DNA of 64,000 nucleotides from a virus. The notes below the pieces were generated by a model, which was given only the letters and a program-made list of their open reading frames with translations, was not told the DNA's origin and did not search any database. The stretch spans positions 31,071 to 95,070 of the IMG/VR virus record IMGVR_UViG_3300033233_000020; one strand, given 5' to 3'. This document shows, in pieces, positions 24,646 to 35,523 of the stretch; positions within the stretch are counted from its first letter, which is position 1, and the number at the start of each line of letters is the position of its first letter. A program made the translations under genes and the position numbers.

Positions 24646-24665
24646 AGGGCTAAGGCCCTTTTTTA
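24646..24665 (+). terminator. Rho-independent terminator
   Basis: AGGGC-TAAG-GCCCT stem-loop followed by six T. It follows the first early gene. The 250 bases after it up to 24918 hold no gene; they are AT-rich and end in a conserved leader hairpin. Confidence 0.8.
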
Positions 24666-24870: not shown

Positions 24871-24895
24871 GGGGCTGCGCATCCGAGCAACGCAG
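24871..24895 (+). repeat. Leader hairpin family 1, copy 1
   Basis: GGGGCTGCGCATC followed by 7 variable bases and CGCAG: a CTGCG/CGCAG stem 23 bases before the next ATG. A second 25-base copy is at 25335. The conserved side and identical spacing suggest an RNA element of the leader. Confidence 0.65.
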
Positions 24896-24918
24896 AAAAC
24901 CAACGCACTTTCAGTCAA

Positions 24919-25209
24919 ATGACACCAGCAACAACAGCAACAGCACCAACAGCTAAGTGGAAGCATAACTGGCGTGAATCAACTGGCAACAGGCCAGTAG
25001 ACGCCAAGCTTTTCCACAGCTATGTGGAACAAGCGTATGAATTACTTAAGGAGTTTACTTCAGCAGACTTCTTATACCACGATGTGCGAGAGGTTTGCCA
25101 ACCACAGTATCTGTTCAGTGTCGTATCTGACATGACTGAGTGTAAGCTCAGCATGAAGATATATAACACTGAGTCAGGACTACGCGTCATTACCATCCAT
25201 AAGGTATAA
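24919..25209 (+). CDS. Unrecognised early protein
   Basis: 96 residues: Thr/Ala-rich start, then KLFHSYVEQAYELLKEFTSA and a beta-rich end (CKLSMKIYNTESGLRVITI). No Shine-Dalgarno sequence; the leader carries the family 1 hairpin. Function unknown. Confidence 0.75.
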   Translation: MTPATTATAPTAKWKHNWRESTGNRPVDAKLFHSYVEQAYELLKEFTSADFLYHDVREVCQPQYLFSVVSDMTECKLSMKIYNTESGLRVITIHKV

Positions 25210-25334
25210 TACCAGCCAATAAGCTGTCGTTCACCCCAAACCCCTTGCTATCACTACGTTCTTATACCCATTTAGGCTAAGTATCTAGGTGGGGCAAATA
25301 AGATTGTCGTAGCAATTAGGGCTATGTATAAACA

Positions 25335-25359
25335 GGGGCTGCGCATCTGTAACACGCAG
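25335..25359 (+). repeat. Leader hairpin family 1, copy 2
   Basis: Same GGGGCTGCGCATC block and CGCAG partner as at 24871, again 24 bases before an ATG. Because the element lies inside the longest open frame, it argues that translation begins at 25384 and not at 25324. Confidence 0.65.
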
Positions 25360-25383
25360 ACAACTCACTTGCCTATCAACATC

Positions 25384-25605
25384 ATGGATTACAACTTTTG
25401 GGATCCTAGTAAAGACTCCCTTTGGGGAGTTTACGAGAAAGGACAATGCGTTTATGTTTATTGCTCCAAGCTTGAAGCTCAATTTGCTGCCGAAGACATT
25501 GGCGGTCAATTGGTTGAAGTCAGCAATCAAGAGCTGCCAGACTTTTGGTTTTACAACGCAGGTCTCAATTTAATTCGCACAGGTTGTTATCACCAAGTCT
25601 ACTGA
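25384..25605 (+). CDS. Small unrecognised early protein
   Basis: 73 residues from ATG 25384 (MDYNFWDPSKDSLWGVYEKG). Beta-rich with aromatic residues and no membrane segment. The start is chosen because the conserved leader hairpin precedes it. No domain recognised. Confidence 0.7.
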   Translation: MDYNFWDPSKDSLWGVYEKGQCVYVYCSKLEAQFAAEDIGGQLVEVSNQELPDFWFYNAGLNLIRTGCYHQVY

Positions 25606-25614
25606 ACTGTAGTA

Positions 25615-25677
25615 CTCCGTTTGCGGAGGGCCAGGTGCAACTCCTGGCTTCAGTTATTGCCTCCAGCGGAGATAGGC
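25615..25677 (+). ncRNA. Triple-hairpin leader element, copy A
   Basis: Hairpin 1 CTCCG-TTTG-CGGAG; hairpin 2 GCCAGG-TGCAACT-CCTGGC with a 7-base loop; linker CAGTTATTGC; hairpin 3 CTCC-AGC-GGAG. It begins just after a stop codon and ends 21 bases before the next start. Copies B and C share the order, loop sizes and linker while stem bases differ. No T tract follows, so it is not a terminator. Confidence 0.65.
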
Positions 25678-25698
25678 ACCGCACACACGGAGAACACC

Positions 25699-25917
25699 GT
25701 GACCAACACTACTACAGCTACACTTCCTACCAGGGAAGAGCTAGCTAACACGGCCTACGATCTCATCCAGTTCTGGATGGAGTCAGGCCACTCGCAACTA
25801 CTAAGCCGTGAGCAAGCACTTGAGATTGCCGCATGGGGTCTCAAGATTGCTGGCGAACGCGAGTTGCAAGCCCAAGTTCTTGCGGAGCTTGTAGAGCTTC
25901 CCGAGAACTACGGCTGA
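25699..25917 (+). CDS. Small helical early protein
   Basis: 72 residues from GTG 25699 (MTNTTTATLPTREELANTAY), a helical charged protein (EQALEIAAWGLKIAGERELQ). The upstream frame to 25621 overlaps hairpin element A, so GTG is preferred. Function unknown. Confidence 0.6.
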   Translation: MTNTTTATLPTREELANTAYDLIQFWMESGHSQLLSREQALEIAAWGLKIAGERELQAQVLAELVELPENYG

Positions 25918-25980
25918 TCCGTCAAAGCGGAAGGCAGGGTGCAATTCCCTGCTCAGCAATTACCACTCACTGAGAGTGGT
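25918..25980 (+). ncRNA. Triple-hairpin leader element, copy B
   Basis: TCCG-6-CGGA; GCAGGG-TGCAATT-CCCTGC; linker CAGCAATTACC; ACCACTC-ACTGA-GAGTGGT. It starts directly at the stop of the upstream gene and ends 13 bases before ATG 25994. Hairpin 2 loop keeps the TGCAAYT pattern of copy A with different stem pairs, which is covariation. Confidence 0.7.
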
Positions 25981-25993
25981 CAACTCAACCGTC

Positions 25994-26182
25994 ATGTCTA
26001 ACTACAAAACATTCAGCTTCGCTGTCACAGGCGTTGTAGCAACCATGGCTATTGTTTGTCACCTTGGTGTACAAGCACTAGACAAGGCTACAGCCGAACA
26101 ATGCAAGACACATGCATGGCCTCAGGTTGCACATCAAGTCCACATGGACTGGTGTGCAGACAATGGCTATGCAACCAACTGA
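25994..26182 (+). CDS. Small single-pass membrane or exported peptide
   Basis: 62 residues. N-terminal hydrophobic segment (FSFAVTGVVATMAIVCHLGV) then a short polar domain with two Cys (EQC and DWC) that could form a disulphide outside the cytoplasm. A longer frame from 25976 overlaps the leader hairpin and is less likely. Function unknown. Confidence 0.65.
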   Translation: MSNYKTFSFAVTGVVATMAIVCHLGVQALDKATAEQCKTHAWPQVAHQVHMDWCADNGYATN

Positions 26183-26183
26183 G

Positions 26184-26246
26184 TCCGTAAACACGGCACT
26201 GGGAGGTGTAAGTCCTCCCCCAGTTATTACCACCCACTGAGGGTGG
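26184..26246 (+). ncRNA. Triple-hairpin leader element, copy C
   Basis: CCG-6-CGG; GGGAGG-TGTAAGT-CCTCCC; linker CAGTTATTACC; CCACCC-ACTGA-GGGTGG. It lies between stop 26182 and ATG 26261. Hairpin 3 has the same ACTGA loop as copy B with several changed base pairs. Confidence 0.7.
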
Positions 26247-26260
26247 TTACACCACTGACC

Positions 26261-26413
26261 ATGGCTATCCGCAAAGCTATCGCCACTCAACTCTCCAATG
26301 CTGCCAAGGCTTTGGAGAAAGACCAGACTAAAGAGCAAGCCGGTAGGTTAATCAACAGCATGCGCATTGGCTTAGCTAATGTCATCATGCCTAACATACC
26401 GCTGGCTAAATAG
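26261..26413 (+). CDS. 50-residue helical peptide
   Basis: ATG 26261 to TAG 26413: MAIRKAIATQLSNAAKALEK then a helical, moderately basic tail ending PNIPLAK. Bounded by a leader element on each side, which supports it as a real gene despite its size. Function unknown. Confidence 0.6.
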   Translation: MAIRKAIATQLSNAAKALEKDQTKEQAGRLINSMRIGLANVIMPNIPLAK

Positions 26414-26451
26414 TACGCACGTACTACTCCCCTCCCACCCGCAAGGGTGGG
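26411..26451 (+). promoter_or_regulatory. Two leader hairpins
   Basis: TAGTAC-GCAC-GTACTA (includes the preceding stop codon) and CCCACCC-GCAA-GGGTGGG. No T tract follows. They end 22 bases before the next ATG, matching the placement of other hairpins in this module. Confidence 0.6.
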
Positions 26452-26473
26452 CACACACCCCTAACTAATCACC

Positions 26474-26659
26474 ATGCTTCAACCTATTCTTGCGATTGTC
26501 ATGGGCACTGGTGCTGGCATGCTTCTAACCGTCGCCGGGCAGAAGCTACTCAACCAGCATTACCAGGAAACATGCCCATCCAAACCTACACATCAGCTAG
26601 TATCTATCACCAGCTTTATCGGTGATGCAGACTACTGTATCAACAAGAGTTGGCTCTGA
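26474..26659 (+). CDS. Small single-pass membrane peptide
   Basis: 61 residues: an N-terminal hydrophobic segment (ILAIVMGTGAGMLLTVAG), then a short polar part with two Cys (ETC, DYC). The layout resembles the protein at 25994, so the two may be distant paralogues. Function unknown. Confidence 0.65.
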   Translation: MLQPILAIVMGTGAGMLLTVAGQKLLNQHYQETCPSKPTHQLVSITSFIGDADYCINKSWL

Positions 26660-26665
26660 CACTTC

Positions 26666-26692
26666 TTGTCCTAAGCATGACATTAAACTGCT
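26666..26692 (+). repeat. Dispersed leader hairpin family 2, copy 1
   Basis: TTGTC-8-GACA followed by TTAAACTGCT. Compared with other copies the outer pair C-G is replaced by T-A, a compensatory change that keeps the stem. It lies 29 bases before ATG 26722. Confidence 0.7.
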
Positions 26693-26721
26693 ACCAACTC
26701 AACCTAACCCAACTAAAGACC

Positions 26722-26934
26722 ATGTCTCAATCTATTTTCGAAATTGAAAACGCATACGTATGCGTCGTGAATGGTGAACCAGAACTATTTGAGACACAAC
26801 AACAAGCAGAAGATCATGCCATGGAACTTAGCTTTGCATGGTATGACGCACAGCTTGATGTCCCTGCTCCGCGATTAGCAGTTATGTCAGTCACCAACTG
26901 GCTAAACCTGCAATCACGATTAGCACTCGTCTGA
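26722..26934 (+). CDS. Small unrecognised early protein
   Basis: 70 residues from ATG 26722 (MSQSIFEIENAYVCVVNGEP). Mixed alpha/beta, acidic. The start is chosen because the conserved leader hairpin lies upstream of it inside the longer open frame. No domain recognised. Confidence 0.7.
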   Translation: MSQSIFEIENAYVCVVNGEPELFETQQQAEDHAMELSFAWYDAQLDVPAPRLAVMSVTNWLNLQSRLALV

Positions 26935-26942
26935 TGTTTGCC

Positions 26943-26980
26943 CAGAGGGCTTCGGCCCTCTCTGCAGATTTCATATCTGC
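26943..26980 (+). promoter_or_regulatory. Two leader hairpins, one with UUCG loop
   Basis: AGAGGGC-TTCG-GCCCTCT, a very stable tetraloop hairpin, followed at once by GCAGAT-5-ATCTGC. They occupy the gap between two genes and end 27 bases before ATG 27008. No T tract follows. Confidence 0.65.
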
Positions 26981-27007
26981 TACTCAACTACAACCCAACT
27001 AGGAACT

Positions 27008-27250
27008 ATGTCTCCTTCAAGCGTTGAACATCTACTCACCCAGCAAGCTCGCCTTCTGGCACGTAGAGAAACACCAGTCATCGACCAAGAGCTTGAGAAC
27101 TTACGCCAATCGGCATTGGAAGTATTCTTCCAGTGGCAAGATGGCTTATGTGAGTTCCAAGATCTAACACCTTTCGTTGCCATCCTTGAGAAGAAGGTTG
27201 ATCTCAACCAGTCACTACTCAAGTGGGAACAAGAACACATCACTGACTGA
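27008..27250 (+). CDS. Small helical acidic protein
   Basis: 80 residues, helical throughout (SSVEHLLTQQARLLARRETP, IDQELENLRQSALEVFFQW). No domain recognised. The next gene starts two bases after its stop. Confidence 0.7.
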   Translation: MSPSSVEHLLTQQARLLARRETPVIDQELENLRQSALEVFFQWQDGLCEFQDLTPFVAILEKKVDLNQSLLKWEQEHITD

Positions 27251-27252
27251 TC

Positions 27253-27426
27253 ATGGAACAGTTAACTCTTCAACAAACGGCATTACTCAACCGTTACCAC
27301 CGTATTTATGCGGCATGGTTAAAGGTTGAGACTTATGAAATGGATGTCATGCTCTGCGCAGCTTACGCTTCCGCACTTGACACCTGCCTTGCTGCTGACT
27401 TTAATCCTTTTGATTACCCTGAATAG
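27253..27426 (+). CDS. 57-residue helical protein
   Basis: ATG 27253 to TAG 27426: MEQLTLQQTALLNRYHRIYA with two likely helices and an acidic end. Starts two bases after the previous stop, consistent with an operon. Function unknown. Confidence 0.6.
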   Translation: MEQLTLQQTALLNRYHRIYAAWLKVETYEMDVMLCAAYASALDTCLAADFNPFDYPE

Positions 27427-27444
27427 ACTGATCTCTGCACTTAA

Positions 27445-27485
27445 CCCTGAGTAACACCAGGGCTTTCTGCAGGGTTCACCCCTGC
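27445..27485 (+). promoter_or_regulatory. Two leader hairpins
   Basis: CCCTG-8-CAGGG and GCAGGG-TTCAC-CCCTGC. They lie in the only gap between neighbouring genes and end 26 bases before ATG 27512. Confidence 0.6.
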
Positions 27486-27511
27486 TCAACACTCACATCA
27501 TTCACAGCACC

Positions 27512-27745
27512 ATGAAAGCATTACTCCTTGCATTAGTTCTGACAACACCCGCCATTGCTCAATCTATTGATCCTATTGCATATGGCGAAAGGTATTGTCT
27601 ATTACGTAAATTGAATATTGATTCTGCAACGGCACGTAAAACTGCTGTTGAATACAGCTATGATACACACCGTAGCCTGGTAAATAGCAAAGAAGATATT
27701 TCTGCTGCTGCTAAATACACAGTTAAGAACTGTCCTGACTTCTAA
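27512..27745 (+). CDS. Small secreted protein
   Basis: 77 residues with a clear signal peptide (MKALLLALVLTTPAIA, probable cleavage before QSID). The mature part has two Cys (RYC, KNC) likely to pair in the periplasm. A periplasmic early phage protein might affect superinfection or envelope state, but that is a guess. Confidence 0.7.
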   Translation: MKALLLALVLTTPAIAQSIDPIAYGERYCLLRKLNIDSATARKTAVEYSYDTHRSLVNSKEDISAAAKYTVKNCPDF

Positions 27746-27774
27746 CCTGAACTACTCACACCTTTGTTAACAGC

Positions 27775-27966
27775 ATGAAACAAATCATCTCACTTGGTAA
27801 CAACCGCTACATTCACCTAGACACTTATGGTGGATACAGGGAATCCCCTCTGTCTAAACTCGTCATGACAACCCTTGTACTAGCTATTGCAGGAATTACT
27901 GCAGGAGCTATGGTTGGCATTGACAGCACCAAGATCAACCCACCTACTCAACACCAAACCAAATGA
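27775..27966 (+). CDS. Small single-pass membrane protein
   Basis: 63 residues with a hydrophobic segment at about 28-48 (LVMTTLVLAIAGITAGAMVG). Overlaps the next gene by four bases (ATGA). No domain recognised. Confidence 0.65.
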   Translation: MKQIISLGNNRYIHLDTYGGYRESPLSKLVMTTLVLAIAGITAGAMVGIDSTKINPPTQHQTK

Positions 27967-28196
27967 ACACCTATGTAGCACTCATTGCAGATGACAGTGG
28001 CAGATACTGTCACGTCTATGGCACTGCAAACACATGGCATAATTACGTAGACCAACTCGAAGAGCTGGGCTGCGAAGTTGTCGAAAATCAAACCGACGAC
28101 TATGACATACAAGACCTTGGTACCATCGACGATGAAATAGGCGTGGTACCCATCACCAAGCTACTAACATCCACTGACTTTATCCCCTGCAGATAA
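27963..28196 (+). CDS. Small unrecognised protein
   Basis: 77 residues, acidic, beta-alpha (YVALIADDSGRYCHVYGTAN, YVDQLEELGCEVVEN). Overlaps both neighbours by four bases and one base. No domain recognised. Confidence 0.7.
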   Translation: MNTYVALIADDSGRYCHVYGTANTWHNYVDQLEELGCEVVENQTDDYDIQDLGTIDDEIGVVPITKLLTSTDFIPCR

Positions 28197-28570
28197 TGAA
28201 TAACCCACAACATCCCATCACCCCACCGCCGGAGCTGGTGCAGCAGTGGTTGTGCTCAGACGACTACCTGTGGGGTCCGCTTGAGCAGACGTCCATCACC
28301 ATCACGACCAACCGGCTCCAGAACGTCGCCGCCCAAGCCGCCCAATGGGGCGCCGACCAGGAGCTGGAGGGGTGTTGTAGGTGGTTGCCGAAGCTACCCC
28401 CGTGGAGCGCAAACGACCTGCGCAAGCATCGCCGCCCCAAGCCGCCGAGCTTGAAGGAGCAGGCGCTAACTGCGCTACACGCTGTTGCAACAGGATCTAA
28501 TGACACCCGTGAGCAACACCAAGACCTTGACACTATTCGCCAAGCATTAGAGGCATTACCTAATGACTGA
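28196..28570 (+). CDS. Synechococcus/cyanophage-type small protein, PITPPPELVQQWL family
   Basis: 124 residues. The N-terminus HPITPPPELVQQWL and the block NVAAQAAQWGADQELEGCCR are of a kind seen in picocyanobacteria and their phages. A second family member is at 35035. The DNA of the middle part is clearly more GC-rich than neighbouring genes, suggesting recent transfer. Molecular role unknown. Confidence 0.75.
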   Translation: MNNPQHPITPPPELVQQWLCSDDYLWGPLEQTSITITTNRLQNVAAQAAQWGADQELEGCCRWLPKLPPWSANDLRKHRRPKPPSLKEQALTALHAVATGSNDTREQHQDLDTIRQALEALPND

Positions 28571-28730
28571 ACGTGAAAACTTCTACAAGTGGATAAAAAC
28601 CTGTCCACTTACTGACTACAAAATATGTGAGGCAACTCTAACTTCTGTGTCATATGAATTTAACTTCAACACTGTTGAACCAGACATTGATCAACTCATT
28701 GATGATGTATTGATTCATCTAGAGAAATAG
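28563..28730 (+). CDS. 55-residue acidic protein
   Basis: ATG 28563 overlaps the end of the previous gene by eight bases; stop TAG 28730. MTERENFYKWIKTCPLTDYK then an acidic helix (DIDQLIDDVLIHLEK). Function unknown. Confidence 0.6.
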   Translation: MTERENFYKWIKTCPLTDYKICEATLTSVSYEFNFNTVEPDIDQLIDDVLIHLEK

Positions 28731-28751
28731 CCAATACTACCCATGTATTGG
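28731..28751 (+). promoter_or_regulatory. 7-bp leader hairpin
   Basis: CCAATAC-TACCCAT-GTATTGG begins at the base after the preceding stop codon and lies 31 bases before the next ATG. A 7-base loop again; no T tract. Confidence 0.6.
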
Positions 28752-28782
28752 CACATCTTCTAATACATAACCAGACCTGAGC

Positions 28783-29031
28783 ATGTCTATAAACTGCTCC
28801 GCAAAACCCACATTCAATCCCCTGCAAATCATGCAATCAACCTCTGACTTCATTGATGAGCAACGCAATGCTGACATGCTTGATGCACTGGCAGACATTG
28901 CATACGAACAAGAACAAGCTATGCGTGAATCCGAGCAAAGCGATTGGGATGGCATCGATGAAATATCTGATGCCGAACGCAATGCTTGTGATCACTACAA
29001 CGAACGTTATGTAATCACTACCCATGACTAA
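28783..29031 (+). CDS. Small acidic protein
   Basis: 82 residues from ATG 28783; a second ATG at 28831 is possible. Acidic helical centre (DEQRNADMLDALADIAYEQE). Ends inside the next gene's start region. No domain recognised. Confidence 0.65.
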   Translation: MSINCSAKPTFNPLQIMQSTSDFIDEQRNADMLDALADIAYEQEQAMRESEQSDWDGIDEISDAERNACDHYNERYVITTHD

Positions 29032-29737: not shown

Positions 29738-29795
29738 CCTGGGCAACCACAATCGCTAAGCACATAGCTTAGAAAGATATGGTGTAAGTCCCAGG
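29738..29795 (+). ncRNA. Leader element with TGTAAGTCCC motif, copy D
   Basis: Outer stem CCTGGG/CCCAGG encloses CTAAG-7-CTTAG and the block GGTGTAAGTCCCAG, which resembles the hairpin 2 block of copy C and a related sequence at 34243. It ends 16 bases before ATG 29812. Confidence 0.55.
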
Positions 29796-30096: not shown

Positions 30097-30140
30097 GATA
30101 CTTGTAATCCGAGTAACTACCATCTATTCATAATCCGAAT

Positions 30141-30197
30141 AACAAAGGGCTGGTACGCATTAGTACCTAAGCCTGGTGCGGCCAGGCACCCTTTGTT
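30141..30197 (+). ncRNA. Predicted three-way-junction RNA in a 360-base gene-free gap
   Basis: P1 AACAAAGGG/CCCTTTGTT (9 bp) closes two perfect hairpins, GGTAC-GCATTA-GTACC and GCCTGG-TGCGG-CCAGGC. The loops contain GCA and TGC, which could kiss. It is flanked upstream by a direct repeat TAATCCGARTAAC (30105 and 30131) and downstream by TCCC-AAC-GGGA (30209-30219) and the palindrome CACTGGCCAGTG (30229-30240). The rest of 30097-30455 has a C-rich tract near 30320 and GTAAGTC/GACTTAC at 30370-30400, with no gene. No match to a known riboswitch or ribozyme is recognised. Confidence 0.6.
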
Positions 30198-30455
30198 AAA
30201 CGACGGAATCCCAACGGGAAGAATAGATCACTGGCCAGTGAGGTCTCGAGAACCACACAAAGTCTAACTTTTAATCAAACTTAACTAACTCAGTACAAAT
30301 ACCCAATGAGACTAAGAGATCCCCCCTGCACCCCCCTGGCAACCCACCACCAGCACTATTAGATTTAGAAGTAAGTCCCATGTAATACACATAAGACTTA
30401 CTTGCTCTTCCTTGACATCCCTGATAGACTACCAACTCATTCACCCACTCATCTC

Positions 30456-30683
30456 ATGCCACTCATGTCACCACTCAACGACGCACCTAAGCCACGCATT
30501 CCAGATGCCATCGACAAGCAACGGCTGCAAGCAATGCAGCTCGTAGCAAAGATGAAAGAATCTGCGGATAAGTACGGCGTTGGTTTCGTCGGCGGCTTCA
30601 TCAGCCCCAACGGACAAAAGTTCATGATGACAAACATGAACGAAGATGACACCAACGCACTCTTGCCGGATGACCTTAAGTGA
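30456..30683 (+). CDS. Small early protein
   Basis: 75 residues from ATG 30456 (MPLMSPLNDAPKPRIPDAID); ATG 30465 is an alternative. Central helix (KQRLQAMQLVAKMKESADKY) then Gly-rich strands and an acidic end. No domain recognised. Confidence 0.65.
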   Translation: MPLMSPLNDAPKPRIPDAIDKQRLQAMQLVAKMKESADKYGVGFVGGFISPNGQKFMMTNMNEDDTNALLPDDLK

Positions 30684-30919: not shown

Positions 30920-31094
30920 CTTTGACAGAACCATCGCAGGTGTCAACATCACCGAGAATGGTATCAAGTCGTACACTAAATCGTTTCAGCTTGGTCCCTT
31001 CCAGCTGACACTTAATGCTCGTGACTCTGGCGTACATGGATCTATATCCTTGCCAGGCACAGGCTTGAGTAAGAGAAACATTAAGATAATCTAA
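30897..31094 (+). CDS. DUF4236-like small protein
   Basis: 65 residues from ATG 30897. The chain of short strands ending SISLPGTGLSKRN resembles the DUF4236 pattern, in which a PGTGLS motif closes a small beta domain. Function of that family is unknown. It overlaps the previous gene by 23 bases. Confidence 0.55.
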   Translation: MTKKSPINFDRTIAGVNITENGIKSYTKSFQLGPFQLTLNARDSGVHGSISLPGTGLSKRNIKII

Positions 31095-31808: not shown

Positions 31809-31835
31809 ACGTCCTGAGTATGACGTTAAACTGCT
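31809..31835 (+). repeat. Dispersed leader hairpin family 2, copy 3
   Basis: Identical to the 31099 copy over the hairpin and tail. Starts five bases after a stop codon and ends 28 bases before ATG 31864 of the PcfJ-like gene. Confidence 0.75.
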
Positions 31836-31863
31836 CACACAATAAATCCACCCTTAACTCACC

Positions 31864-33573
31864 ATGCAGTTCCAACTACCCACAAATTTACAAACTGAGT
31901 TGATTGCGTATGATCCACAGCTCAAGGCTTTGGCTCGTACTCAAAAGCAATCAACAACCAAGAAATCTAAATACCCACTGGGTAATCCTATTGATCTTAT
32001 CCCTAATGAAATCATTACAGCAGAGAGAGTACAAGATGCCATTGATGCAATCAACAAGGCACCAGCCCCTGGTCGTTACCGCGAGTTCACCAAAGTAACG
32101 TCGACAGGTACAATAACCCACGCAGTCCTTTACCACTACGAACAAGTATGGTACGCAGCCTGGCTGCCACCTAAGGGCAAGGAAGCTGACTATATCTATG
32201 GCTATACCTATGCATACAAAGATACAGCTACTGTACGCAAGTTATTGCCACGTGCTTTAAACATGGCAAAAGATGATTGTGTAAACAAACCATCTGGTAG
32301 ATGTACGTTTGTTACTTATACACAACAAGTAACCAAACAAGATGTCATCAATGGAAGAGATACATATAATTGGAACATACCAAACATGCAACGATACGCG
32401 CAAAAATCACAAAATATGCGCGAACCTATTGATCGTTTTGAAAACCAAATTGAAATGTCTATACCTCAATGGAAAGACTCTAGAAATATATTCGAACGTA
32501 TCAAAACCACATGTATTGCAGAGTTATTTACACGTGATTTCCATACTGAATACTGGAAAGACATAAACAAATCCAAGTGGTTACCTTCTGTTGATATTAT
32601 CTTTAGCTTTATTAACAACCAAGATGTACACAGCTCATACAACTTATTCGCTGAAGATCTTTATGGTTATAAAAGTATCTTGCACATATTAGATACACCA
32701 TACTTTCGTAAGTGGATCCAAAACAAATGCAATGAATCTATAGAATCATTTAACAATCCAGATACTGATACAAAGATATCAATTACACAACCATGGCTTA
32801 TGATCTTTCATCTGTGTAAACAGATCAAAACCGTACACAATATCTGGGGAAATGCATGTCCTCTTGATTACTATCAAACAAACCTCAATGCTTTACTCAG
32901 TGTTAGTTATAACTCTGGTTACAGTAAAGACTATGCTTATCCGTGGCTAGTTAAACATATGCCTGTCGCTTCATTCTTTTCACTAGTAAATAAATTTTAC
33001 GAGACAAAGATAGACAACACGTCATCTTATTATTTTACAAACAGAATTGGAATATATCAATATCCTTTTAGGGAACTAGAAGATACATTGTCAATGGTTG
33101 AAACAATCCTCAAAGACAAAGGAGAACTAGCGCCACCAAAACGCTGGCGTATTACTGAGTTCCATGACTATGTACAAGCAGAAGCTTGGAAGATAACTAA
33201 TGTAAATCAAAGGCTACCACAAGACCTATTCCCTGTACCAGTCAAGGTTCAACACAATGAACAGAACTGGACATTCATTCAACCTATCGATACACACCAA
33301 CTTGCAGCCTGGGGTCAAGCCGTACGCAATTGCGTCGGCAATGCCACAGGTTATGCAGAAGGTGTACGCAAGAAACAACACTTTATTGTTCTATGCATGA
33401 TCAACAACCAACCACAGTTCACAGTCCAACTTAAAGTAAGTATGGGCATGATGACCGTTGATCAGATCGCTGGTGTCTCCAATGCCAGGCTAACGGATGA
33501 GCAACGTGAGTCTTATACAAAAGTATTTGGACAAGCGTTGCAACAACGTGAGGAAGTGCTAGCATCTGCTTAG
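31864..33573 (+). CDS. PcfJ-like protein
   Basis: 569 residues. The C-terminal region (about 470-560) has HQLAAWGQAVRNCVGNATGY, then V..KQHFIVLCMINNQPQF and VDQIAGVSNARLT, matching the PcfJ-type domain known from conjugative plasmids and phages, whose biochemical role is unsettled. The N-terminal 440 residues are a helical, Tyr/Trp/Asn-rich extension without a recognised domain. No Shine-Dalgarno sequence. It is the largest gene of the early block. Confidence 0.75.
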   Translation: MQFQLPTNLQTELIAYDPQLKALARTQKQSTTKKSKYPLGNPIDLIPNEIITAERVQDAIDAINKAPAPGRYREFTKVTSTGTITHAVLYHYEQVWYAAWLPPKGKEADYIYGYTYAYKDTATVRKLLPRALNMAKDDCVNKPSGRCTFVTYTQQVTKQDVINGRDTYNWNIPNMQRYAQKSQNMREPIDRFENQIEMSIPQWKDSRNIFERIKTTCIAELFTRDFHTEYWKDINKSKWLPSVDIIFSFINNQDVHSSYNLFAEDLYGYKSILHILDTPYFRKWIQNKCNESIESFNNPDTDTKISITQPWLMIFHLCKQIKTVHNIWGNACPLDYYQTNLNALLSVSYNSGYSKDYAYPWLVKHMPVASFFSLVNKFYETKIDNTSSYYFTNRIGIYQYPFRELEDTLSMVETILKDKGELAPPKRWRITEFHDYVQAEAWKITNVNQRLPQDLFPVPVKVQHNEQNWTFIQPIDTHQLAAWGQAVRNCVGNATGYAEGVRKKQHFIVLCMINNQPQFTVQLKVSMGMMTVDQIAGVSNARLTDEQRESYTKVFGQALQQREEVLASA

Positions 33574-33585
33574 CTCGCACAGCTT

Positions 33586-33615
33586 GCCGGTCCTATCCTC
33601 GTAAGTAGGGCCGGT
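33586..33615 (+). promoter_or_regulatory. Strong hairpin between genes
   Basis: GCCGGTCCTA and TAGGGCCGGT pair (10 bp with one G-T) around a 10-base loop. No T tract follows; it ends 8 bases before ATG 33623, so it could mask the start or act as a processing site. Confidence 0.6.
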
Positions 33616-33622
33616 ACCACCT

Positions 33623-33847
33623 ATGACTGAACACACTGACGAACAACTCCTAGCCATGGCAATGGCAAACTTAGGAGGATACATTCATGACAACTCACCA
33701 CACTATGTATTAATAGAAGATCCACGTAACGAAGATGACTTTGATACGTGGAGCTATGGTACAGAACCATTACCTAATGACCACACTTGGCGTTCTACAT
33801 CAGTCGATGTAGATGTAAGCCCAAGTGACGCAGACGTGACGGAATAG
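33623..33847 (+). CDS. Small acidic protein whose 3' end overlaps a tRNA
   Basis: 74 residues (MTEHTDEQLLAMAMANLGGY), acidic at the C-terminus (VDVDVSPSDADVTE). Its last six codons, including the TAG stop, are the first 18 bases of the tRNA-Leu gene. Translation and tRNA maturation from the same transcript would compete. No domain recognised. Confidence 0.65.
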   Translation: MTEHTDEQLLAMAMANLGGYIHDNSPHYVLIEDPRNEDDFDTWSYGTEPLPNDHTWRSTSVDVDVSPSDADVTE

Positions 33848-33915
33848 GTATACGTAACGCACTTAAAATGCGTCGGCCATTGGCCTTGCGGGTTCAAGTC
33901 CCGCCGTCTGTACCA
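33830..33915 (+). tRNA. trnL-UAA: tRNA-Leu(UAA) with encoded CCA
   Basis: 86 bases. Acceptor GCAGACG pairs with CGTCTGT (first pair G-U); D arm ACG/CGT with loop GAATAGGTATA; anticodon stem ACGCA/TGCGT with loop CTTAAAA (anticodon TAA); class II variable arm GGCC-ATT-GGCC; T arm GCGGG-TTCAAGT-CCCGC; discriminator A; CCA encoded. This matches a leucine tRNA of cyanobacterial type. It would read UUA codons, which are used in the AT-rich phage genes. Confidence 0.95.
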
Positions 33916-34222: not shown

Positions 34223-34227
34223 TTATT

Positions 34228-34253
34228 TGGGCATTGCTTGCATGTAAGTCCCA
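34228..34253 (+). ncRNA. Leader element with TGTAAGTCCC motif, copy E
   Basis: TGGG/CCCA outer pairing around TGC-TT-GCA, containing ATGTAAGTCCCAG as in copy D. It lies 38 bases before ATG 34292. Short, so support is weaker than for copies A-C. Confidence 0.4.
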
Positions 34254-34291
34254 GACAGTAAACCAACTGTAATTTATCTTCAATCAACACA

Positions 34292-34712: not shown

Positions 34713-35042
34713 ATGCAACCACAAAATCCAAACACTGGAATCAACCTTGATCTTGTTGATGATGTTGTTTATCGGATACCAGAGTGGACATGGTTTGTTG
34801 TTAAGGATCGCTTAGTCACAGACTTAGTAGATGCTATGACAACTACAATACTTGAACGTCTTACTGGTGATCCAGTTGGTGATGATCGTGCCCAAGAAAT
34901 TCTTTATGATTACTATGCATCATCTGACAGAAACAAAGATCTAATTGTTGATTCATTTAAGATCATTGGTGAAGAACAAACTTTGTATTCACTTGATTCT
35001 CTTCAACTAGACAAAATTACTGAGCCTACTAACAATGACTAA
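34713..35042 (+). CDS. Acidic helical protein
   Basis: 109 residues (VKDRLVTDLVDAMTTTILER), acidic, no known domain. Overlaps the next gene by eight bases. Confidence 0.7.
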   Translation: MQPQNPNTGINLDLVDDVVYRIPEWTWFVVKDRLVTDLVDAMTTTILERLTGDPVGDDRAQEILYDYYASSDRNKDLIVDSFKIIGEEQTLYSLDSLQLDKITEPTNND

Positions 35043-35523
35043 CCAACACCCCATCACCCCACCGCCGGAGCTGGTGCAGCAGTGGCTCGCTGAGCCAGAA
35101 TACGTTTCTGGATGGAGCGGCAAATGTATGCTGATCAGCATCACCGATCACCGGCTCAGCAACATCGCCGCCAAGGCCGCCCAATGGGGTGCCGACCAAG
35201 AGATGGAGGCCAGGCAGCAGAAGATTCGCTCCGGCCCTGAATCGCCACTAGTGGAGCGCGTCGCTGATGCAATCGCAGCACAGGCCACCTCTGCTGGCAT
35301 CGTCAACGACCGCCCTGCCCGCGCCGCGATCCTTGTGGTGGCGGCGTGGTTGCGAGAAAAGGGCTACGGATCGTGGGTGACACTTGAACAGGAGGCCAAC
35401 CGATGGTTGACTACGCCCGCGCCGTCCTCGCCCGCTGGGGCACACCCGCCAACACTATTAACCAGGAGGACTACGACTGATGGAGGAGCATTACGAATGG
35501 GAGCTGCAAGATTCCAGTGGTGA
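35035..35523 (+). CDS. PITPPPELVQQWL-family protein with probable frameshift
   Basis: Paralogue of the 28196 protein in its first 60 residues (HPITPPPELVQQWL, AAKAAQWGADQE). Up to EQEANRWL near 35412 the frame looks normal; afterwards it becomes Pro/Thr/Arg-rich and runs into the next gene. In the -1 frame the DNA encodes DYARAVLARWGTPANTINQE and stops at TGA 35478-35480, exactly overlapping the next ATG (TGATG). That is the arrangement expected of the intact gene, so a frameshift around 35405-35415 is likely (mutation, sequence error or programmed). GC-rich and probably acquired. Confidence 0.7.
   Translation: MTNQHPITPPPELVQQWLAEPEYVSGWSGKCMLISITDHRLSNIAAKAAQWGADQEMEARQQKIRSGPESPLVERVADAIAAQATSAGIVNDRPARAAILVVAAWLREKGYGSWVTLEQEANRWLTTPAPSSPAGAHPPTLLTRRTTTDGGALRMGAARFQW

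Follow-up and report, generated by a model that had tools for sequence, protein, structure and literature searches.

Phage genomes contain long arrays of very small early genes that change rapidly. In T7, hairpins between the early genes process the polycistronic messenger RNA (mRNA) via RNase III, and the PeSLs of T4-type phages, said to have been described by Arbiol in 2010 and Comeau in 2014, are reportedly mobile promoter/stem-loop cassettes. Plant mitochondrial t-elements are gene-adjacent tRNA-like folds at which cuts by RNase P and RNase Z define mRNA ends (PMC11658184, available part), and RNase P also cuts some phage RNAs and mRNAs, for which the available part of PMC11143913 lists phage M3 RNA, C4 RNA and the T4 gene 32 mRNA. 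In halovirus HF2, two repeat classes found in many gene gaps and conserved across the virus genus carry promoters (PMC8707807, available part). Here we describe the gaps between the early genes in a 64-kb stretch (the window; positions 31,071 to 95,070 of IMG/VR record IMGVR_UViG_3300033233_000020) out of a 95-kb virus record. The hairpins in these gaps are a repertoire of recurrent intercistronic RNA families, called H, T, E1, PK and K, in cyanophages resembling Synechococcus phage S-EIV1.

S-EIV1 (KJ410740) is the closest named relative of the window (80.7% DNA identity, 54% of a 25-kb query), and the gene order of the early block, at 24.3-31.9 kb, is common to S-EIV1 and five IMG/VR loci. 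The families were first recognised by comparing homologous gaps in S-EIV1 and relatives. Contigs were then collected by four IMG/VR pattern scans, among the matches listed, and those with at least two families were kept and known duplicates dropped, which left 107 sequences (1.1 Mb). They contain 557 copies (T 177, K 132, H 120, E1 72 and PK 56), which are not independent because related phages sit in the set. None of the five families was seen in the virion module of the window. Covariance models (E < 0.01) confined H and T to the early block in the window and in S-EIV1, with no copy in the remaining 30 kb (virion part) of S-EIV1 or across 49 kb of a distant relative, phage B23. The exact H pattern, searched in GTDB genomes, matched on two contigs of Brocadiaceae metagenome-assembled genomes. 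Rfam gave no match to the elements above gathering score, a search of the block up to E 5 returned chance-level hits only, and the Rfam matches in the window were tRNAs only. Pfam found nothing for nine small proteins. No earlier description of the repertoire was found in the open-access literature, subscription papers lying outside that scope.

The elements occupy a common slot: each overlaps or closely follows the stop codon of a small upstream gene, and the next start lies about 20-30 nt further on. An open reading frame (ORF) of at least 35 amino acids follows within 110 nt in the sense direction for 116/120 H, 71/72 E1, 55/56 PK, 128/132 K and 172/177 T copies, against 46, 19, 28, 53 and 86, respectively, in antisense. 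The median distance from element end to gene start is tight: 25 nt for H, 23 for E1, 27 for PK and 29 for K.

The T element mimics the top half of a tRNA, with a 7-nt T-loop, 12 nt from the loop to the end of the helix, and the upstream stop codon in its outer stem. In tRNA, the T-stem/acceptor stack of 5 + 7 bp is what RNase P reads (PMC4919913, available part); T has a 12-bp stack of this type below its T-loop, divided either 7 + 5 (loop UGCAAAC) or 5 + 7 (loop AUCGAAU). Among 183 T-loop hairpins with ATTRCC at most 30 nt downstream, the distance from loop to ATTRCC is 12 nt in 146 and 13 nt in 31 (177/183). The outer stem is fully paired in 156/177 copies versus a mean of 98 (maximum 110) with halves swapped, and in the covariation alignment (32 of 60 picked copies) 95.2% of positions are paired, with 13 of the 15 pairs changed on both sides. 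An open-frame stop codon lies in the outer stem in 144/177 copies versus 9/172 shifted controls, and stems containing UGA or UAA have matching 3' strands. Downstream of T lies either a plain hairpin or a pseudoknot; in the pseudoknot, the second stem pairs completely in 67/68 cases. A CCA-like 3' end was considered and rejected, as the RCC that follows ATT opens the next stem and its R covaries (GCC..GGC in 98, ACC..GGT in 16). In its loop, T resembles T-loop hairpins known from cobalamin riboswitches and twister-sister ribozymes; its assignment to a known riboswitch or ribozyme was rejected, as Rfam gave nothing up to E 5.

The same block also contains a genuine tRNA-Leu(UAA), both in the window and in 17 of the 60 loci scanned. 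A nearby stop codon was found in 17 of these 18 cases and falls inside the tRNA in 14 (position 7, 12, 15 or 31 after the first base), and 16 of the 18 have an ATG in the next 120 nt (median distance 20.5 nt). A real tRNA therefore fills the same slot as the elements, and an intercistronic tRNA-Leu with the stop inside favours putative processing at one place.

The H element is built of a hairpin and three strands, a, c and d; all three strands are present in 95 of 110 contexts of H candidates, in 55 distinct a-c-d triplets. The alignment of 34 copies (33 of 40 picked, and one added window copy) gives a covariation of 0.578 versus 0.194 shuffled (0/500), and 8 of 9 pairs of hairpin 1 show changes on both sides. 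Strand c pairs with the upstream strand a in 95.4% of cells and with the downstream strand d in 100%. Column 47, in strand c, covaries with column 6 and also with column 60, as UA/CG/UG/GC with strand a and as GC/AU/CG with strand d. Across the 55 triplets, a:c pairing reaches 0.71 versus 0.59 shuffled (0/2000 as high) and c:d pairing 0.78 versus 0.64. Because c covaries with both partners, H can form either one long hairpin (a:c) or two hairpins (c:d); when enforced, the a:c form has greater stability than c:d in 81/95, and the conformers are less than 3 kcal/mol apart in 39/95. Strand a sits directly 3' of the upstream stop codon, where it would be covered by a terminating ribosome. A palindrome related to GATACGAATTCGTATC occurs inside hairpin 1 in three relatives (L009 4828-4904, L010 3700-3776 and L008 6875-6956) and recurs elsewhere in these phages.

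Regarding the remaining families, the internal loop of K (GGGC..NN / TRTAAGT) is constant and is closed by P2, a stem that varies and that has at least 3 bp in 65 of the 87 distinct inserts (shuffling expectation 0.30). PK forms an H-type pseudoknot; compensatory changes occur in stem 1 (GTC/GAC to GAC/GTC), and stem 2 has TGAGY/RCTC. The distinct E1 copies carry CTGCG/CGCAG (51) or ATGCG/CGCAT (2); as a clear transcription start E1 was rejected, with only a short conserved stretch, NTANCG, upstream of its GGGG. A further element, S, is found in three phages only (the window, S-EIV1 and L007), and the hairpins at 26411 and 28731 are rarer than those of H and E1. The elements of the window are arranged as follows:

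24871-24895, plus strand: E1, GGGG and a 5-bp hairpin CTGCG/CGCAG with an 11-nt loop, 23 nt ahead of the ATG at 24919
25335-25359, plus strand: second copy of E1, 24 nt ahead of the ATG at 25384
25601-25656, plus strand: T element 1, tRNA-like (model R2, E 1.1e-5), then a pseudoknot-type module to about 25700
25911-25979, plus strand: T element 2 with hairpin CCACTC..GAGTGG (E 4.3e-18)
26177-26245, plus strand: T element 3 with hairpin CCACCC..GGGTGG (E 4.5e-10)
26411-26451, plus strand: S element, hairpin 26411-26426 (holds the upstream TAG stop) and hairpin 26434-26451
26656-26694, plus strand: divergent PK copy, preceding the gene that starts at 26722
26934-26981, plus strand: H (E 6.4e-12), 27 nt ahead of the ATG at 27008; a 26936-26941, hairpin 26944-26961, c 26963-26969, d 26975-26980
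27431-27486, plus strand: H (E 8.5e-15), 26 nt ahead of the ATG at 27512; a 27433-27439, hairpin 27445-27462, c 27468-27474, d 27480-27485
28730-28752, plus strand: 8-bp hairpin abutting the upstream TAG stop, 5' of a PK element
28772-28801, plus strand: PK; the next gene likely starts at 28831 (or at 28783, inside PK)
29738-29795, plus strand: K, CCTGGG..CCCAGG with the conserved TGTAAGT internal loop
31099-31127, plus strand: PK, stem 1 ACGTC/GACGT, stem 2 TGAGT/GCTCA
31809-31837, plus strand: PK
33830-33915, plus strand: tRNA-Leu(UAA) with encoded CCA, upstream stop TAG 33845-33847 inside, next ATG 22 nt downstream
34227-34255, plus strand: K, short variant

A preliminary description of this DNA had noted perfect hairpins with no T tract in most early gaps, and its observations stand in part. 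The hairpins that it placed at 26411, 26943, 27445 and 28731 are present: perfect ones lie at 26411-26426, 26434-26451, 26944-26961 (UUCG loop), 26964-26980, 27445-27462, 27469-27485 and 28730-28752. A plus-strand scan for terminator-like sites flags none of them, and the rather constant distance to the next start holds, at 22-30 nt on our coordinates. The sites 26943 and 27445, described as holding one or two hairpins, contain one copy each of a single family, whose lowest-energy fold is one longer hairpin rather than two, and the gap at 27746 has no element, so that not each cistron is preceded by one. Gaps of at least 20 nt were folded and compared with 200 dinucleotide shuffles each, as per-gap counts without multiple-test correction; one longer gap was skipped in the middle module and one in the virion module, and three start codons were off by 1-3 nt. 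The gaps at 26414 (z -2.3), 26935 (z -2.7) and 27427 (z -2.8) are more stable than shuffled sequence (3/200 shuffles each) and that at 28731 is borderline (z -1.6, 12/200), so that folding energy bears out three of the six sites and fails for 24871 and 25335. The hairpins at these two sites combine a 5-bp stem with an 11-nt loop, the one at 25335 not being chosen by RNAfold, and are real because they are conserved as E1, in 72 copies, and not because they are energetically stable. A threshold of at most 6/200 is reached by 10/16 early gaps, 7/13 tested middle gaps and 4/13 tested virion gaps. Judged by energy alone, early and virion gaps thus differ moderately, and the middle gaps are similar to the early ones.

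The same genes can be preceded by different elements, and each family recurs ahead of unrelated genes. The downstream proteins form 97 clusters, and 15 of the 30 clusters with at least 4 members are preceded by at least two families; one cluster has T 28, H 18 and E1 2, another K 17, PK 14 and E1 4. T precedes 50 clusters, E1 21, K 20, H 15 and PK 13. The idea of a shared design, put forward together with the first hairpins, is partly supported: tight spacing in four families, sense placement, covariation and orthologous genes with different elements speak for it, but the hairpins are not generic and fall into defined families that share conserved sequences and have alternative pairings.

From this observed anatomy, that is family membership, pairing, slot, spacing and exchange, we infer an insulating or processing function, and we give even credence to the reading of the elements as RNA punctuation. 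The fold in the slot would separate the upstream terminating ribosome from the downstream initiating one and would protect or define mRNA ends. T would probably be recognised by tRNA-processing enzymes, as would the genuine tRNA-Leu that shares its slot; the tRNA in the slot and the tRNA ruler of T point to such possible processing. A terminating ribosome would cover strand a of H and stem P1 of T, whose folding should therefore respond to translation of the upstream gene, and the self-contained layout would make a gene with its leader a portable cassette. A reading as tRNA-mimicry punctuation is possible, though less likely than not: T and tRNA-Leu would be cut by host tRNA enzymes, H, K, PK and E1 would be non-tRNA folds evolved for the same slot, and since the stop lies in the outer stem of T and next to strand a of H, a terminating ribosome would block the fold, so that each cut or fold would sense upstream translation.

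Several points weigh against RNA punctuation. The covariation shuffles ignore the relatedness of the copies. Within the block, ARAGORN and Rfam find tRNA-Leu only and no T. The outer stem of T often starts with A-U, the common loop UGCAAAC is without the usual second U, and one small stem replaces the D and anticodon arms; T may therefore be a poor RNase P/Z substrate, and an RNase P cut would cost the upstream stop codon. Because the ATTRCC flank was one of the features used to find T, its ruler is constrained within one related family, and its gene starts were called crudely (first ATG/GTG), which makes its distance to the start unreliable. The leaders of T and E1 are not particularly low in G, and the gaps with the E1 hairpins at 24871 (z -0.2, 75/200) and 25335 (z -0.9, 32/200) do not exceed shuffled sequence in stability. 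Finally, T/H and K/PK exchange mainly pairwise, so that interchangeability is incomplete.

Exchange could also mean that the elements are primarily recombination cassette boundaries, similar to PeSLs, at which shared DNA would lead to gain, loss and swap of early genes, with RNA structure secondary. The H of phage L009 is a chimera of the first and second H of L010, and its T a chimera of the two T copies of L010, in each case with one gene-bearing stretch missing; in L007, duplicate H copies flank an inserted ORF. Overall, gene-sized indels have 65 junctions, of which 23 overlap an element versus 7.8 expected by random placement, but at gene boundaries the excess is modest (20/44 versus 624/2185, 28.6%; p 0.018, with related genomes counted as independent). 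The block shares with PeSLs the stem-loops between small variable early genes; it lacks an early promoter in the unit, as promoter-like sites, of sigma-70 type only, are below shuffled expectation in the block (8 versus 13.5), and sigma-70 promoters were rejected. We consider this explanation unlikely, since the stems diverge while pairing stays, which recombination homology does not require, and the spacing to the start codon is tight.

That spacing, with constant medians of 23-29 nt, would also suit translation-initiation modules in place of a Shine-Dalgarno (SD) sequence, in which a fold docks at the edge of the 30S subunit and is followed by a C/A-rich, unstructured, S1-dependent leader. 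The H, PK and K leaders have about 5.5% G and few SD-like 4-mers (12/116, 0/55 and 0/128, respectively), and in the window such 4-mers precede 4/26 early genes versus 13/23 virion genes. Leaders of the S1 type, without SD, C/A-rich and unstructured, are thus found for H, PK and K, and less so for T and E1, and they fit the cyanobacterial non-SD genes in the available part of PMC5397173, where C and A are enriched around -15. The leader alone could suffice, however, as element-free genes of the block have similar leaders; several unrelated folds would all need to dock, and T is often followed instead by a pseudoknot and a GGAG-bearing hairpin. We doubt, on these grounds, that initiation is what the folds serve.

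If the elements were weak terminators or attenuators giving the early operon its polarity, the two exclusive pairings of H could be the switch. Attenuators typically have covarying pairings that exclude each other, and in relatives 3-4 T follow some H copies, with TTTTC after some H hairpins. Against this, TTAC or CTCT is found in many H copies, there is no U tract in K, PK or E1, and no window copy passes the plus-strand terminator scan, none of the listed hairpins having a U tract directly 3' of the stem; attenuation is therefore very improbable. Ordinary chance hairpins in G+C-rich gaps deserve virtually no credit, for even if neither the gaps with E1 nor that at 28731 clearly exceeds shuffled stability, covariation, sense-strand placement and family exchange speak against them, and for H, T, K and PK this explanation is already refuted.

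Other features of the window lie around the elements. A typical intrinsic terminator (AGGGCTAAGGCCCT and a T run, 24646-24659) closes the gene ahead of the early block. A conserved structured stretch at 30097-30461 (GGTACGCATTAGTACC, TGGTGCGGCCAGGCACC; z -3.3, no Rfam match), also present in S-EIV1, L007 and L008, looks like a separate small RNA, and a conserved C-rich stretch at 30330-30460, CCCCCTGCACCCCCC, followed by CTTGACA..TAGACT in several relatives, is a possible promoter or origin. Two G+C-rich paralogous genes (28196-28570 and 35035-35523) share 76% DNA identity over 176 nt, with a third short match elsewhere in the record. The 569-amino-acid protein encoded at 31864-33573 has a weak PcfJ-like Pfam match (E 7.8e-6) and a distant homologue in Synechococcus phage B23. 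It is followed at 33574-33622 by a nearly perfect 12-bp hairpin (z -3.4) that, unlike the slot, ends a few nt ahead of the ATG.

If true, a standard exchangeable RNA slot between cistrons would explain gene swapping without breaking the operon, and the elements would be ready-made operon insulators for cyanobacterial engineering. T would be an mRNA-borne tRNA mimic repeated along a phage operon, and H, covarying and three-stranded, is a directly testable candidate for a ribosome-responsive switch. Tests are feasible, as S-EIV1 has been isolated and its host is in culture.

Among the known systems, PeSLs are reportedly repeated intercistronic stem-loops at small variable early genes, as the elements described here are, and tied to gene shuffling, as the elements may be; the elements differ from PeSLs in comprising several unrelated covarying folds with no U tract and with tight spacing to the start codon. 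Compared with the RNase III sites of T7, the stems are mostly 5-12 bp, short for RNase III, and their lengths argue against such sites. The elements are folded RNAs, unlike the promoter-bearing repeats of HF2 (PMC8707807, available part). T resembles the non-tRNA substrates of RNase P in phages, which are also phage RNAs with tRNA-like features, and a repeated intercistronic family of its kind is not among the substrates in the available part of PMC11143913. The t-elements and tRNA punctuation share with this block a tRNA-like fold by genes, here together with a genuine intercistronic tRNA-Leu; in contrast to t-elements, T keeps the top half of the tRNA and one small arm, holds the upstream stop codon, and repeats before many phage genes, where its cleavage is predicted.

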